From a virus, in the IMG/VR virus record IMGVR_UViG_3300046481_000003, positions 1 through 23,232 of that record: DNA of 23,232 bases; one strand, 5' to 3'. The translations under genes and the position numbers were made by a program. Below, piece by piece: positions 2,138 to 19,778 of the stretch (position 1 is its first letter; every line of letters starts with the position of its first letter). The notes under the pieces were generated by a model. That model ran no database searches, was not told where the DNA came from, and saw only the letters and a list, made by a program, of their open reading frames with translations.

Positions 2138-2578
2138 TCACCCCTTTTTAACGTATTTATCAATAAATCCGTCTGTTCCAATAAGCTCAAATCCTAGGCT
2201 TTGAAACCAATTATAATCGCTATCGCCGGTTGTTTCAAGTTCAATTATTCCTTTTTCGCCGGAATATTCGTTTACTATTTTATCGCTTACCTTCCGGAGA
2301 AACTTTGTCAAGGAAAACCAGTTATTTTTAAACCCTTCTTCGGTCGCCGCGAACTGAGTTTTCCAGGTCATTTCGCCAATAGTATCCATGATGATCAGGG
2401 CAATGCACTCTTCGCCTTGATAAAAGGCAGTGGACCACGGCTTGCCTACCATAGATTTGAACTTAGCGCGGGATTTCTCGGGAGATGAACCGAATATCAG
2501 GATCTCTTCTCTCCCCTGCTGCCAGAGGTTATCAATCACCTTGTCCACACTTTCTTTTGTTAAATGTCTGGTGTTCAT
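2138..2578 (-). CDS. GNAT acetyltransferase-like phage virion protein
   Basis: A 146-residue protein starting at ATG 2578 (MNTRHLTKESVDKVIDNL), whose ATG overlaps the TGA of the upstream HNH gene. The open frame extends further upstream to 2680 but that part lies inside the HNH gene and is a shadow. Pattern: an N-terminal helix after MNTRHLTKES, a strand with CIALIIMDTIGEMTWKTQF, a long helix, then IIELETTGDSDYNWFQSLGF followed by ELIGTDG, which matches the last part of the GNAT fold (F-x-S-L-G-F-E). Similar small GNAT-like proteins (DUF2833 and relatives) occur in podophage virion regions. The canonical acetyl-CoA loop (Q/RxxGxG/A) is not evident, so it may be structural rather than enzymatic. 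Confidence 0.6.
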   Translation of the reverse strand: MNTRHLTKESVDKVIDNLWQQGREEILIFGSSPEKSRAKFKSMVGKPWSTAFYQGEECIALIIMDTIGEMTWKTQFAATEEGFKNNWFSLTKFLRKVSDKIVNEYSGEKGIIELETTGDSDYNWFQSLGFELIGTDGFIDKYVKKG

Positions 2579-3300
2579 ACCGCGAGCCTCAATGATGGTT
2601 GGAAAGGTTTGTCGAGCTTGTTGTACTTCTTGATGTTGTCTGTTGCCCAAAGGGGTTGTAGGTTTTTTAATGCCCAACACTTCTTAAAATCTATGTCCTC
2701 CGGCTTCTCATAATTAAAAGCTGATCTAGGTATCTTGTGATCAATATGCCACATACCCATATTATCCCAACTCATACCGGGAAGGAACAGCGACTCAAGA
2801 TGGGCGCTTAATTGACCAACTGTATAGCCAACCAAATCTTCCCAATGCTGACCAGCCTTGAAATTCTTTAAAGAGTGCCACATCACAGAACTAACCCTAT
2901 TACTTAAAAGTCCGGCAGGGGTGCTTAACCTCTTTCTATTGTTCTCGGTGTATCTTTTCTTGATTCGATCCGGATGAGCTAACCTATATTTCGTCTCCTT
3001 AGCTTTTATTTTATCGGGATTTTCTTTAGCCCACTTCGTTTGATAAACACTTATTTTCTGTTGGTTGTTTTTTCGATATTTTTTACAAACAGAGAGGTAG
3101 TGAACCTTATTATTTTTATATCTTTCCTTAGACATAGCATTTTGTTCATCTTTATTATTTGAATAAAACTTACGAGACTCTTTGTTGCAACAGGGAATAC
3201 ACGTCGGGCGTAGCTTTTCGCTTGATTGGTTGTATCTATAATATTCAGTTATCGGTTTTTCCTGCTTGCACTTCGTGCAGGCTTTTTTGGCTATTTCCAT
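2575..3300 (-). CDS. HNH endonuclease, free-standing, with N-terminal zinc module
   Basis: A 241-residue protein. The N-terminus has a four-Cys zinc module (C8, C11, C34, C37) in the arrangement CxxC-x(22)-CxxC, followed by a Lys-rich region with repeated W/Y-x-K-E-N-P-like segments (about 60-125). The C-terminal HNH core has H185-I-D187-H188, N213 in LKNLQPLWATDN and a following KK pair. This is the McrA-like HNH type without the second Cys pair seen in the other copies. The stop TGA overlaps the ATG of the GNAT-like gene, and GAGG in its last codons lies eight bases before that ATG, so the insert supplies the next gene's ribosome binding site. No clear binding site precedes its own ATG. No intron core was found around it. 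Confidence 0.85.
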   Translation of the reverse strand: MEIAKKACTKCKQEKPITEYYRYNQSSEKLRPTCIPCCNKESRKFYSNNKDEQNAMSKERYKNNKVHYLSVCKKYRKNNQQKISVYQTKWAKENPDKIKAKETKYRLAHPDRIKKRYTENNRKRLSTPAGLLSNRVSSVMWHSLKNFKAGQHWEDLVGYTVGQLSAHLESLFLPGMSWDNMGMWHIDHKIPRSAFNYEKPEDIDFKKCWALKNLQPLWATDNIKKYNKLDKPFQPSLRLAV

Positions 3301-11343: not shown

Positions 11344-12253
11344 TTACGGTCTGGTTGCTGCCGTATCTATCGCCATCACACCGAAATCATTACCGTTAAA
11401 GGTAACTTTCTTGAATCCCCAAATGGTATGGGTTGTGATGATGACTTTGTTTCCATTGTCGCGCTCTTCTTCGTGCCAGCCAAAACGCAAATCCTGCCCT
11501 GGTGAACCAAACGCAACAACGCCCGCCTGCATACCGCAGAACAGAGCACGGGAGGCACTTACATTAGAGCCTGAACCGTAATCGGTGAAGCGGATGATGT
11601 TCGGGTGCGAATGAATAACTACACCATTCCACATACCGACTCCACCCTTAATAAACGGGGTTTCTTTGCCCACTGCGGTTGCGATTGCTTTCTGAATATC
11701 CGCCCAATCGTTCGCAGTGGTATTCCTTCTTAGGTCGAATTTCTGGTACGGATCGATTACCATCAGGAAAACTTCTTCTCCGTCCACTTCGCATTTCTGA
11801 ATCTGCGGGATTTCAGAATAAGCAGGACCGCCGCCGCCCATCATTTCCGCGTAAGCTACTGCGCGGTCAATAGGAAGTGTAGACAGTTTGTCGGTTACCA
11901 GCAAGGAAGCCTTGGATGTTGCAACGCCGCCGTAGACGATGTGATTCGTGTCGGGGGATGTAAGGCTGTTGTTGGCATAACCCGAATAGGTCGTAGGAAA
12001 TACGAATTCGGTATTGGTTCCACGCGCGCCGGCGAGATACATCATAATGATCTCGTCGAATACTCTTGCCCACCAGTCGATGGACCTTGCTCTTGCAATC
12101 TTGCGAAGATCGTGAAGAGTTCTTTTGCGGGTCATTCTTCCGCCGCAATCTGCGCCACCGCGCATCTGATCAATGTAAACATTGTCAGTGTAGAAGGACA
12201 ATCCCTCTTCTTTACCGTGTAACTCTGTGTCACCTTCGATAGGCTGCATGTTA
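11344..12253 (-). CDS. major capsid protein, exon 2 (N4-gp56 family)
   Basis: Second exon of a split capsid gene; with exon 1 (13127-13329) it gives 1113 bases, 370 codons plus stop. The exon begins at T12253 so that the split codon reads CT|T and the protein continues L-N-MQPIEGDTELHGKEEGL. Conserved family blocks follow: FYTDNVYIDQMRGG, GRMTRKRTLHDLRKIARAR and DWWARVFDEIIMMYLAGARG, which are the hallmark of N4-gp56/DUF4043 capsid proteins. The C-terminus has GVMAIDTAATRP. ATG 12249 inside this exon makes the frame look like a separate 301-residue gene, but it would lack the N-terminal arm. The family forms HK97-like shells of podophages. Its mRNA must be spliced to give the full protein. 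Confidence 0.9.
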
Positions 12254-13126
12254 CCTAAGTCTTCGGAATGATTAGCTTTTTATCATTCCCGCCTATTGTT
12301 TCTAGGCTGCCTTACCTTTTAGTAAGGGGGAGACCATATCTTCACCCGTCGTTACGGGGATGAGTGCTTCGCTCCGCTTGGAGCTACTCCCTTGCGGGAT
12401 GGCCGTTGAACCTTCTTGATGAGGGCATACGCCATTATTGCGTCGTTTCCCTTGATTGCAATTCCAACATAATAATTGAAATCTATCAGGGAATCCTTCG
12501 CGGATAACGCGCCCGTAGAGATTACCTTGAGAAAATGCTTTCCTCTCGATATGACCATCGTTGTTAACGTGATCAAGTGTAAGGAATAAAGGTTCGGTTT
12601 CTCCGCAACACGCACATTTATTGCCGTAAGCTTCATAAACTTTTGTTCGTGCATTAATGCGTGTCTTTTTAGCCCACTCATTTTCTCTTGCGCGAACCAA
12701 GTCTGGTTGCTCTATGCGTTTCTGTCTTGCTGTTGCGTTGAACCGTTCCTTATCGTCAGCAAAATATTTGCTATGGTATTTAGCCGTACAAGCAATACAT
12801 CTTTTGCTACGATACACTTTATTTCGGTTTTTGTAGAGACGAAACTCTTTAATTAATTTTTCATCTCCACATACTCTACAGGTTGCTTTTTCCTCGACCT
12901 TGCTCGGCTGCTGATTGTCCATTTTGCCGCTCCTTAAAATGTATTCATTCATATTAACTACATTATCACAAATACAGTTTAATTTGCAAGCGCATTCGTG
13001 GCTTTTTTTAACTTTCACGTTTAAATTTTCATTTTGCGTTGTAGTAGCCATGACTTTAGGAGTTCCCAGCAATTCTCTCATTAGTTTACAGTCGCTTGCG
13101 CGAACTGGCAGCCTAACGTATTGCAA
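12254..13126 (-). ncRNA. group I self-splicing intron in the major capsid gene
   Basis: An 873-base intron. The last 5' exon base is U13127 and the last intron base is G12254. Exon GCAGCU (13132-13127) pairs with internal guide GGCUGC (13113-13108), giving six pairs with the classic U-G pair at the splice site. Guide GUUA (13117-13114), just 5' of it, pairs with UAAC starting exon 2 (12253-12250), forming P10. P4: UGCUG (13071-13067) with CAGCA (12913-12909). P7: GGCCAU (12404-12399) with AUGGUC (12337-12332). P8: UCCC-GCAA-GGGA (12399-12388). Three hairpins before the 3' end are CCUUAC/GUAAGG, GCCUA/UAGGC and GGAAUGAU/AUCAUUCC. Core sequences (GACAAUCAGCAGCC, GGUUCAACGGCCAUCC, AAGAUAUGGUCU) resemble phage subgroup IA. 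Splicing restores the reading frame exactly. Confidence 0.92.
12302..12922 (-). CDS. intron-encoded HNH homing endonuclease
   Basis: A 206-residue protein. I start it at ATG 12922 because AAGGAG lies seven bases upstream (12935-12930); the open frame continues to 13126 but that part is intron structure and exon. It has an N-terminal zinc module (C15, C18, C42, C45), a basic linker, then CACC (103-106), LTLDHVNNDG with D117-H118 and N120/N121, and LLCWNCNQGKR with C152, C155 and N156, followed by C166-P-H168. The first codons encode the P4 3' strand of the intron, and the last 40 or so residues (after CPH) are the P7, P8 and P9 region read as protein, so that tail is probably not functional. 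Its role is presumed to be cutting intronless capsid alleles to spread the intron. Confidence 0.9.
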   Translation of the reverse strand: MDNQQPSKVEEKATCRVCGDEKLIKEFRLYKNRNKVYRSKRCIACTAKYHSKYFADDKERFNATARQKRIEQPDLVRARENEWAKKTRINARTKVYEAYGNKCACCGETEPLFLTLDHVNNDGHIERKAFSQGNLYGRVIREGFPDRFQLLCWNCNQGKRRNNGVCPHQEGSTAIPQGSSSKRSEALIPVTTGEDMVSPLLKGKAA

Positions 13127-13132
13127 AGCTGC
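13108..13132 (-). other. 5' splice site and internal guide sequence (P1/P10)
   Basis: Exon bases 13132-13127 and the guide 13113-13108 form P1. Bases 13117-13114 are complementary to the first four bases of exon 2, forming P10. A guide touching both exons side by side is diagnostic for group I introns and fixes both splice sites without reference to protein homology. Confidence 0.9.
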
Positions 13133-13329
13133 ATACTTAAATCGTAAGTGATCTGTTCTCCGGCATCCGATTCCAAATCGGTTATCTGCCAGATGGGCCG
13201 GGTAGGTACTTCACCCTTGCCCATAAACTTCCGTGTCCAATAGCCTTTTCTGCCGACGTCTACCGCAAGGTTTCCTGAGAATCTCTTGACGGCCTTAGCG
13301 TCGTTCAGACCAATAATCGTCTGTCCCAT
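13127..13329 (-). CDS. major capsid protein, exon 1 (N4-gp56 family)
   Basis: The first exon encodes residues 1-67 plus two bases of codon 68. ATG 13329 has GGGAGG eight bases upstream. The sequence is MGQTIIGLNDAKAVKRFSG, GRKGYWTRKFMGKGE, and DAGEQITYDLSMQ, the N-terminal arm and first strand of N4-gp56-type capsid proteins; in that family it runs straight into the MQP-GD-L-GKEE block found in exon 2. Without splicing, translation continues 15 codons into the intron and stops at 13081, giving an 82-residue product that could not build a capsid. This truncated frame is easily misannotated as a hypothetical gene. Confidence 0.9.
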
Positions 13330-18653: not shown

Positions 18654-19243
18654 TATTCTCCAGTTATAAGATCAGTTTCATTCAGCGTTAGTTCTTTTGT
18701 TATCTTTGTCCCGTCGATGATCATGGTAACCTCTCCGCATGACACCGTGCTTTCAGGTATTTCCACCGGCAAATCTTTCAGGTCATTAAGCCCGTCCTGA
18801 ATCCACAACAGAAGTTGGATTGCCGCCTGCGGCTGGGGATCAATACCAAATATATGCAGGCACTTTCCTAAATTATACCCGGTGCAGAACATTATCCTTA
18901 GCGTCTTGTTGAGTGCGATTGAAAACGAAATACAGAGAGCGTCCTCAACTATCCTTGCCTTGACTATCTCTGAAAGCCGAACCGTTTTAGATAGCTTCTG
19001 CGCCGCCTGATTGCGCATAAGGATCTGATTGAACTCTCTTACGTCTGACTCTATCGTCTTACGCTCCATGTTGTCGCACGGGTCTATGTATTTCCAAATC
19101 GCCTCTTCCGTGATGCAGAACGAAACGCCGGGGAGCCCCTCTTTGTAAATCACCATTGCGCCCTTATACTCCTCCGCCTCGTCGTTTCCTATTACCTTAA
19201 TGTGGTCATATCTTCGTTTAAGGTCGCCAATATACTTAATCAT
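18653..19243 (-). CDS. unrecognised 196-residue protein; target gene of the upstream HNH insertion
   Basis: The start MIKYIGDLKRRYDHIKVIG is duplicated in decayed form upstream of the HNH gene (19836-19893). The rest contains KGAMVIYKEGLPGVSFCITEEAIWKY, a helical middle (REFNQILMRNQAAQKLSKTV), SEIVKARIVEDALCISFSIA, and a C-terminal domain with IQLLLWIQDGLNDLKDLP and SCGEVTMIIDGTKITKELTL. I recognise no family or catalytic residues. The ATG overlaps the end of the HNH gene by 8 bases, and a GGAGG inside the last HNH codons is its ribosome binding site. Its own stop overlaps the glycosyltransferase start. The open frame is intact, so the gene is probably functional despite the insertion. Confidence 0.7.
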   Translation of the reverse strand: MIKYIGDLKRRYDHIKVIGNDEAEEYKGAMVIYKEGLPGVSFCITEEAIWKYIDPCDNMERKTIESDVREFNQILMRNQAAQKLSKTVRLSEIVKARIVEDALCISFSIALNKTLRIMFCTGYNLGKCLHIFGIDPQPQAAIQLLLWIQDGLNDLKDLPVEIPESTVSCGEVTMIIDGTKITKELTLNETDLITGE

Positions 19244-19778
19244 TTCGTTCCTCCGGTGTCAGTTTATGGGGGCATCTACCATAATATTTCTTTCCAACAT
19301 TACAATTCCAACACAATACTTGGAAGCCTTCTGGAAAATTGTTTTTTATCAACCACGGATAAAGCTGTCTAGCTTTAGGCTCTTCTTTTCGATGCTTATT
19401 TCCATCGTTATTAATATGGTCAATAGTAAGAAACGTAAGTTCTGTTTCCCCACAACAAGCGCATACCGGTTGGCCTTTGCTGTAATGTGACATTGCATTT
19501 ATTTTTACCTTTCTTCTTCCTCGCGCCACTACCAACCTAATCTTTTCTTTATTCTCTTTTGCATATTTAGCGTGATTTTCCTTGGCTTCGCAAGGGTGCA
19601 TACTTACCCACTTTCTTGCCTCTTCTTTAGCGTATTCTTTATTCTTTTGATACCATTTGTTTTGCAATATTCTTTGTTTTTCTTTATTTTCCGGCTTAGA
19701 ATAATATTTACGGCTCGCCTTTCTACGTTGCTCTAATCTTTTTTCCCTTGGCATTGCCGTCCCTTTTATTCCTCTCAT
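19236..19778 (-). CDS. HNH endonuclease, free-standing, relative of the intron enzyme
   Basis: A 180-residue protein from ATG 19778, with AAAGGAG six bases upstream. Residues 1-95 are Lys/Arg/Glu rich (REKRLEQRRKASRKYYSK, NKWYQKNKEYAKEEARKW). The nuclease core is CACCGETELTFLTIDHINND with D120-H121 and N123/N124, then FQVLCWNCNVGKK with C156, C159 and N160, then CPH. This core closely matches the intron endonuclease at 12302-12922, including FQ-LCWNCN-GK and the closing CPH; unlike that protein it has no extra C-terminal tail and no N-terminal Cys module. It lies between genes, without any group I core that I can find, and its last codons provide the binding site and overlap for the next gene. 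Confidence 0.87.
   Translation of the reverse strand: MRGIKGTAMPREKRLEQRRKASRKYYSKPENKEKQRILQNKWYQKNKEYAKEEARKWVSMHPCEAKENHAKYAKENKEKIRLVVARGRRKVKINAMSHYSKGQPVCACCGETELTFLTIDHINNDGNKHRKEEPKARQLYPWLIKNNFPEGFQVLCWNCNVGKKYYGRCPHKLTPEERND

Follow-up and report, generated by a model that had tools for sequence, protein, structure and literature searches.

The viral contig analysed here (23.2 kb in all, called the window) carries a tailed-phage major capsid gene split by an 873-nt insert. Taken as a whole, our data are best explained by a mobile, td-like group I intron that bears an HNH endonuclease gene, belongs to a lineage that settles mainly in capsid genes and would be spliced from the capsid precursor, and we regard this explanation as very nearly certain.

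An insert splits the major capsid gene

The minus strand of the window holds a block of head and structural genes, and within this block positions 12254-13126 (minus strand, 873 nt) interrupt a major capsid gene of the Phage_capsid_3 (N4-gp56) type. Exon 1 (13127-13329, minus strand, 203 nt) begins with an ATG at 13329, and its frame enters the insert for 46 nt before reaching a TAA at 13081-13083 on the same strand. Exon 2 (11344-12253, minus strand) includes the stop codon. When the exons are joined they encode an uninterrupted capsid protein with the junction ...SMQ-L-N-MQP, and exactly this junction is found in the uninterrupted genes of relatives (L003, L004, L005, L006, L009, L014 and L018), where the codons read ATGCAR-CTN-AAY-ATG or ATGCAG-TTR-AAY-ATG. 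The capsid gene was continuous in most of the first 51 loci. The junction of these empty-site relatives places the insert to the base at the coordinates of the original prediction, which had also named the L-N junction and the open joined frame correctly.

The proposal that the two halves form an N4-gp56-type capsid protein agreed with our family comparison. The halves match adjacent stretches of phrog_334 'major head protein' (1-66 and 68-380), and Pfam PF13252 aligns to them at 4-61, with an E of 0.0098 that falls short of its cut-off, and at 64-374 (2e-43), giving a family match over the full length of the protein once the exons are joined.

The insert contains a covarying ribozyme core

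The exon base preceding the insert is a U (13127) and the last base of the insert is a G (12254). On the minus strand, as for all elements below, a guide strand GGCUGC (13108-13113) pairs with exon GCAGCU (13127-13132) as a 6-bp P1 with a U.G at the splice site, and the contiguous GUUA (13114-13117) forms a 4-bp P10 with UAAC, the first four bases of exon 2 (12250-12253). Fold and sequence place a P2 hairpin at 13089-13107. The covariation alignment locates P3 (13076-13081 with ACUCAU, 12360-12365), P4 (UUGCUG, 13067-13072, with CAGCAG, 12908-12913) and P7 (GGCCAU, 12399-12404, with AUGGUC, 12332-12337), all of which form in the window bar one terminal P3 pair. Hairpins P7.1 and P7.2 (12371-12398) lie between P7 and the P3 3' strand, together with P8 (12345-12358) and three P9 hairpins, P9 (12310-12327), P9.1 (12291-12307) and P9.2 (12266-12290). 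Every element read from the letters beforehand (P1, P10, P4, P7, P8 and three P9-type hairpins) was thus recovered, and P3, P7.1, P7.2 and the terminal G were added. P7.1/P7.2 and the three P9 hairpins are what we take to be marks of subgroup IA2, and from these hairpin features we call the intron td-like (IA-type). With the same hairpins and an ORF inside the P6 region, it presumably resembles the T4 td intron in structure. IA2 is a subgroup in use for phage introns (PMC11835236, PMC11878797) and is heterogeneous (PMC11878797).

To compare the core across the lineage, we placed the splice sites of 21 capsid introns with uninterrupted genes as guides. An exon U and a final G were present in all 21 placements, and this rule served as a search constraint for less similar relatives. 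P1 is only 2-4 bp long in several relatives, and their splice-site placements are less certain than that of the window. A first splice site for L019 was dropped for poor P1 pairing; the site GAT/GTAGTATAC, common to the second intron of L016, restored both frame and P1.

Across 20 distinct introns, the P3, P4 and P7 pairings held in 96.1% of cells, with double changes in 12 of 18 pairs. None of 500 shuffles was equally good on pairing and double changes, and pairings that had been slid along were only 29-52% paired. In the 3' domain, compensatory changes occurred in 20 of 25 predicted pairs. We also built a covariance model from 19 introns, leaving out the window and its same-site relative. 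This held-out model matched the window intron over its full length (94.6 bits, E 6e-23) and matched nowhere else in the window.

The Rfam check that accompanied the original prediction fell short: at gathering Rfam had no match in the window, and RF00028 run on a 1.1 kb stretch scored 19.5 bits (E 0.024) against a gathering score of 50. We therefore gathered introns from relatives. The weak score is best explained by the 206-codon HNH ORF between the core halves, which breaks up the match to the model. Introns of the lineage that lack an ORF score 52-89 bits with RF00028, above gathering, and for these reasons we did not count the miss against group I. The class of the insert is settled by the covariation, the held-out model and the RF00028 scores of the ORF-less relatives. 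Our data support a major capsid gene interrupted by a group I intron as the only reading that fits the empty-site junctions, the covarying core and the held-out match together. On those lines the interpretation originally given stands for the intron; splicing itself we infer.

The intron encodes a predicted HNH endonuclease

The original prediction made no mention of a 206-codon ORF inside the insert (12302-12922, minus strand), which starts with an ATG at 12922 behind a well-placed AAGGAG. This HNH-type homing endonuclease ORF is located between Q and R, in the P6 region, with its final codons overlapping the 3' ribozyme core in frame. Its product has CxxC pairs and LDH...CWNCN...CPH residues, of which CxxC, DH, CxNCN and CPH are invariant over seven sequences (the window and six relatives), and the window protein keeps all alignment-invariant residues. 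Among profiles, phrog_2255 'HNH endonuclease' (2.5e-16) comes closest; the Pfam HNH models had no match to the ORF and NCBIfam gave no name for it. We conclude that the ORF encodes a predicted HNH homing endonuclease. A weak candidate promoter, TTGCAA-16-GATAAT with a TG (12962-12989, minus strand), may precede the ORF; in a promoter scan such sites were no commoner than chance, and an internal promoter is at most plausible.

Three further, free-standing HNH-like ORFs occur in the window, all on the minus strand (4-558, 2575-3300 and 19236-19778), and the last of these has a CACCGE...FLTIDHINNDG...CWNCN motif in common with the intron HNH. The loop upstream of the intron HNH (about 12970-13050, minus strand) contains a short conserved frame, M(N/A/S)TTTQNENLNVKVKK, that appears at the same place in L012, L001, L015, L019 and L016 and is in frame with the HNH in some introns and out of frame in others.

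Sporadic presence and site-specific lineages

Presence of the intron is sporadic. Among the nearest relatives, the site is empty in L003 and filled in L012, and other sites are filled in the near relatives L001, L002, L016, L017 and L131. The window and L012 share 80-82% identity at their intron ends but only 70% in exon 2, so that in this pair the intron looks younger than the genes, a pattern that would fit transfer between phages.

Within the Phage_capsid_3 family we mapped at least eight intron sites, at codons 63/64, 66, 68, 73/74, 85/86, 91/92, 110/111 and about 270, and further, less precisely placed sites near codons 8, 31, 130, 228 and 329. A single capsid gene holds three introns in L016 and in L017, and six more genes apparently hold two. 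The HNH tree tracks insertion site, requiring 9 changes against a minimum of 8 and a shuffled mean of 18, which makes these site-specific lineages. The codons at which insertion occurs are more conserved than average (0.849 vs 0.745, p about 0.0006). In L016, one intron (L016_B, 1298-2094) has the ribozyme ends of an L001 intron (L001_B) with a minus-strand LAGLIDADG-like ORF (IIDGEGCIY) in place of the HNH, and we read this pair as an endonuclease swap inside one ribozyme.

In 19 of 20 introns the capsid frame reaches a stop 9-46 nt inside the intron, ahead of the P element; a chance frame stays open across 15-16 codons about half the time. These early in-frame stops suggest that ribosomes are kept off the core.

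Together these observations lead us to propose the following life cycle. The intron occupies a highly conserved stretch of the tailed-phage major capsid gene, and the capsid message would first be made as a precursor. A ribosome on exon 1 would meet its stop after 46 nt of intron, ahead of the P4 strand, and this translational stop would protect most of the core and leave it free to fold. P1 and P10 would bring the exon ends together, and guanosine attack at P7 would begin self-splicing, yielding a joined mRNA and from it the full capsid protein. Homing would then depend on the endonuclease, which may cut or nick intron-free capsid alleles of co-infecting relatives, with repair of the cut allele copying the intron in.

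The lineage settles mainly in major capsid genes

Searches with a capsid profile put intact genes on top and hid interrupted ones, and for that reason we used the HNH, and then the ribozyme pattern, as the query. The HNH search, which is blind to the host gene, returned introns whose hosts were for the most part capsid genes. Phage_capsid_3 genes accounted for about 30 loci, with several duplicates among them, P22-type coat genes for most of the rest and a tail sheath gene for one. The sheath gene, in L139 (2630-2775), has an intron of the same lineage.

We then scanned IMG/VR with the ribozyme pattern only, confirmed the loci with the covariance model and named the host genes via the downstream exon and profiles built in the analysis. 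Among the matches listed, major head genes host 67 of 80 ribozyme-pattern loci, and 32 of 43 after dereplication into 90% identity clusters; because capsid introns supplied the pattern, the preference applies to this ribozyme lineage and not to phage introns generally, and IMG/VR contigs may be enriched for hallmark genes. The head-gene families hit were phrog_267, 334, 3437, 1328, 422, 14242, 1357 and 283 and a weak Phage_capsid_4 group whose five members are based on a sub-threshold match. Non-head hosts among the matches listed include terminase, an RNA polymerase subunit and a tape-measure gene. For a sister intron type with a different P4 (CAATCCGCAG), the same profiles found capsid hosts in 6 or 7 of 55, a control that represents one motif and whose capsid count used profiles from the host genes of the window lineage. 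Hosts of the sister type are DNA polymerase, Sak4-like, helicase and terminase genes.

On three contigs of 60-94 kb all ribozyme copies lie inside the capsid-gene locus, the capsid assignment of L198, on the 94-kb contig, being putative. An HNH scan of genome contigs returned mostly distant HNHs, with a strong ribozyme match at only two loci, both in capsid genes. These two loci are on bacterial MAG contigs (L213 and L225) binned as Pseudomonadota and Xanthobacteraceae, a possible hint at host groups.

The original prediction had stated that phage introns sit more often in DNA-metabolism genes. This matches two published accounts (PMC11878797, PMC12350094), and it is the reverse of what we see for the lineage of the window. 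The lineage to which the window intron belongs is found chiefly in major capsid genes, where its members occupy many different sites across several capsid families. The stronger claim, that this is a mobile group I lineage with tailed-phage major capsid genes as its speciality, reaching across families that share little or no sequence similarity, with up to three copies per gene, strikes us as somewhat better than an even bet.

Alternative explanations

The intron might instead be a regulatory device that times or tunes late capsid production, its capsid location having been selected for the benefit of the phage. Repeated settlement of major capsid genes would be expected on this view, and the early in-frame stops would couple splicing to translation. 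However, most near relatives lack the intron, and its sporadic presence and an HNH tree that follows insertion site are as for a selfish element, and we consider a regulatory role unlikely.

We find it very improbable that the intron has decayed, with splicing lost and the capsid gene either broken or replaced by another copy. Endonuclease genes of such introns can be lost, as the LAGLIDADG-like ORF standing in the HNH place of L016_B illustrates, but the window keeps P1, P10, P3, P4, P7 to P9.2 and the terminal G intact. Its two exons have open frames, and purifying selection acts on exon 2 (third-position changes 0.32 vs 0.04-0.07). Moreover, no second capsid gene is present among the ORFs of the 23 kb window.

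The two halves lie in different frames around an insert with a long ORF, as might be expected if an intein, a programmed frameshift or ribosomal bypassing united them at the level of protein or translation. Such a reading is extremely improbable, since the exon 1 frame runs into a stop within the insert, searches of Pfam, NCBIfam and phrog profiles found no intein domain, and the insert is conserved like an RNA, with covarying core helices. At 873 nt it is also, to our knowledge, far longer than any known ribosomal bypass.

Mis-assembly of two genes, a concern with any metagenomic contig such as this one, can be set aside given an independent contig with the same intron at the same base (L012), a site-B intron in two contigs (L001 and L002), a three-intron gene in two (L016 and L017) and a related capsid intron in a circular GenBank genome (MW202512.1).

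Relation to known introns and significance

The td intron of phage T4 sits in the thymidylate synthase gene and encodes a GIY-YIG endonuclease, whereas the window lineage combines mainly capsid genes with an HNH. The I-HmuI and I-BasI introns of SPO1-like phages encode HNH endonucleases in DNA polymerase genes. They resemble the window in pairing an HNH with a phage group I intron and differ in their DNA polymerase host (PMC11878797 and general background), and the intron HNHs in PMC11878797 fall in PHROG 59, 559 and 2081 whereas that of the window is closest to phrog_2255.

Capsid introns themselves are already known, both singly and in numbers. In the cluster J mycobacteriophage LittleE, RT-PCR together with N-terminal sequencing proved the splicing of a capsid intron; that paper also points to lactococcal phage Tuc2009 as a capsid-intron case (PMC3706429). 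As in the window, a likely group I intron (about 820 bp in LittleE) with an endonuclease ORF lies in the major capsid gene, with an exon U and a terminal G (PMC3706429). In ORF type and strand the two differ: the LittleE ORF is LAGLIDADG-like and on the bottom strand (PMC3706429), whereas the window has a same-strand HNH between the ribozyme halves. In crAss-like phages, group I introns occupy MCP genes, one of which is in five fragments, and also PolB, primase and other core genes (PMC7886860); the hosts of the window lineage, in contrast, are mostly capsid genes, drawn from several families. The new part is the capsid-preferring lineage, of which we found no report in the open-access papers that we searched.

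The anticipated mis-annotation of such genes does exist. In MW202512.1 a capsid gene with an intron of this lineage is entered as two products, a truncated 'major capsid protein' and an 'icea protein'; this complete GenBank phage genome (L208) has a second ORF, 'hnhc', upstream. Phages annotated in this way, with a truncated capsid, may escape surveys that rely on the capsid.

An endonuclease carried in a phage intron can be detrimental to a competitor phage (PMC11620839), and we speculate that the capsid would be a strong target for endonuclease-borne competition. Why phage introns favour DNA-metabolism and nucleotide genes is described as unexplained in two papers from 2025 (PMC11878797, PMC12350094). 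With its preference for a highly expressed structural gene, the lineage of the window is a direct counter-example, and a specialised capsid lineage, if true, would contradict the view that phage introns depend on DNA-metabolism genes. The lineage lets one ask whether preference is set by endonuclease specificity, expression timing or essentiality.
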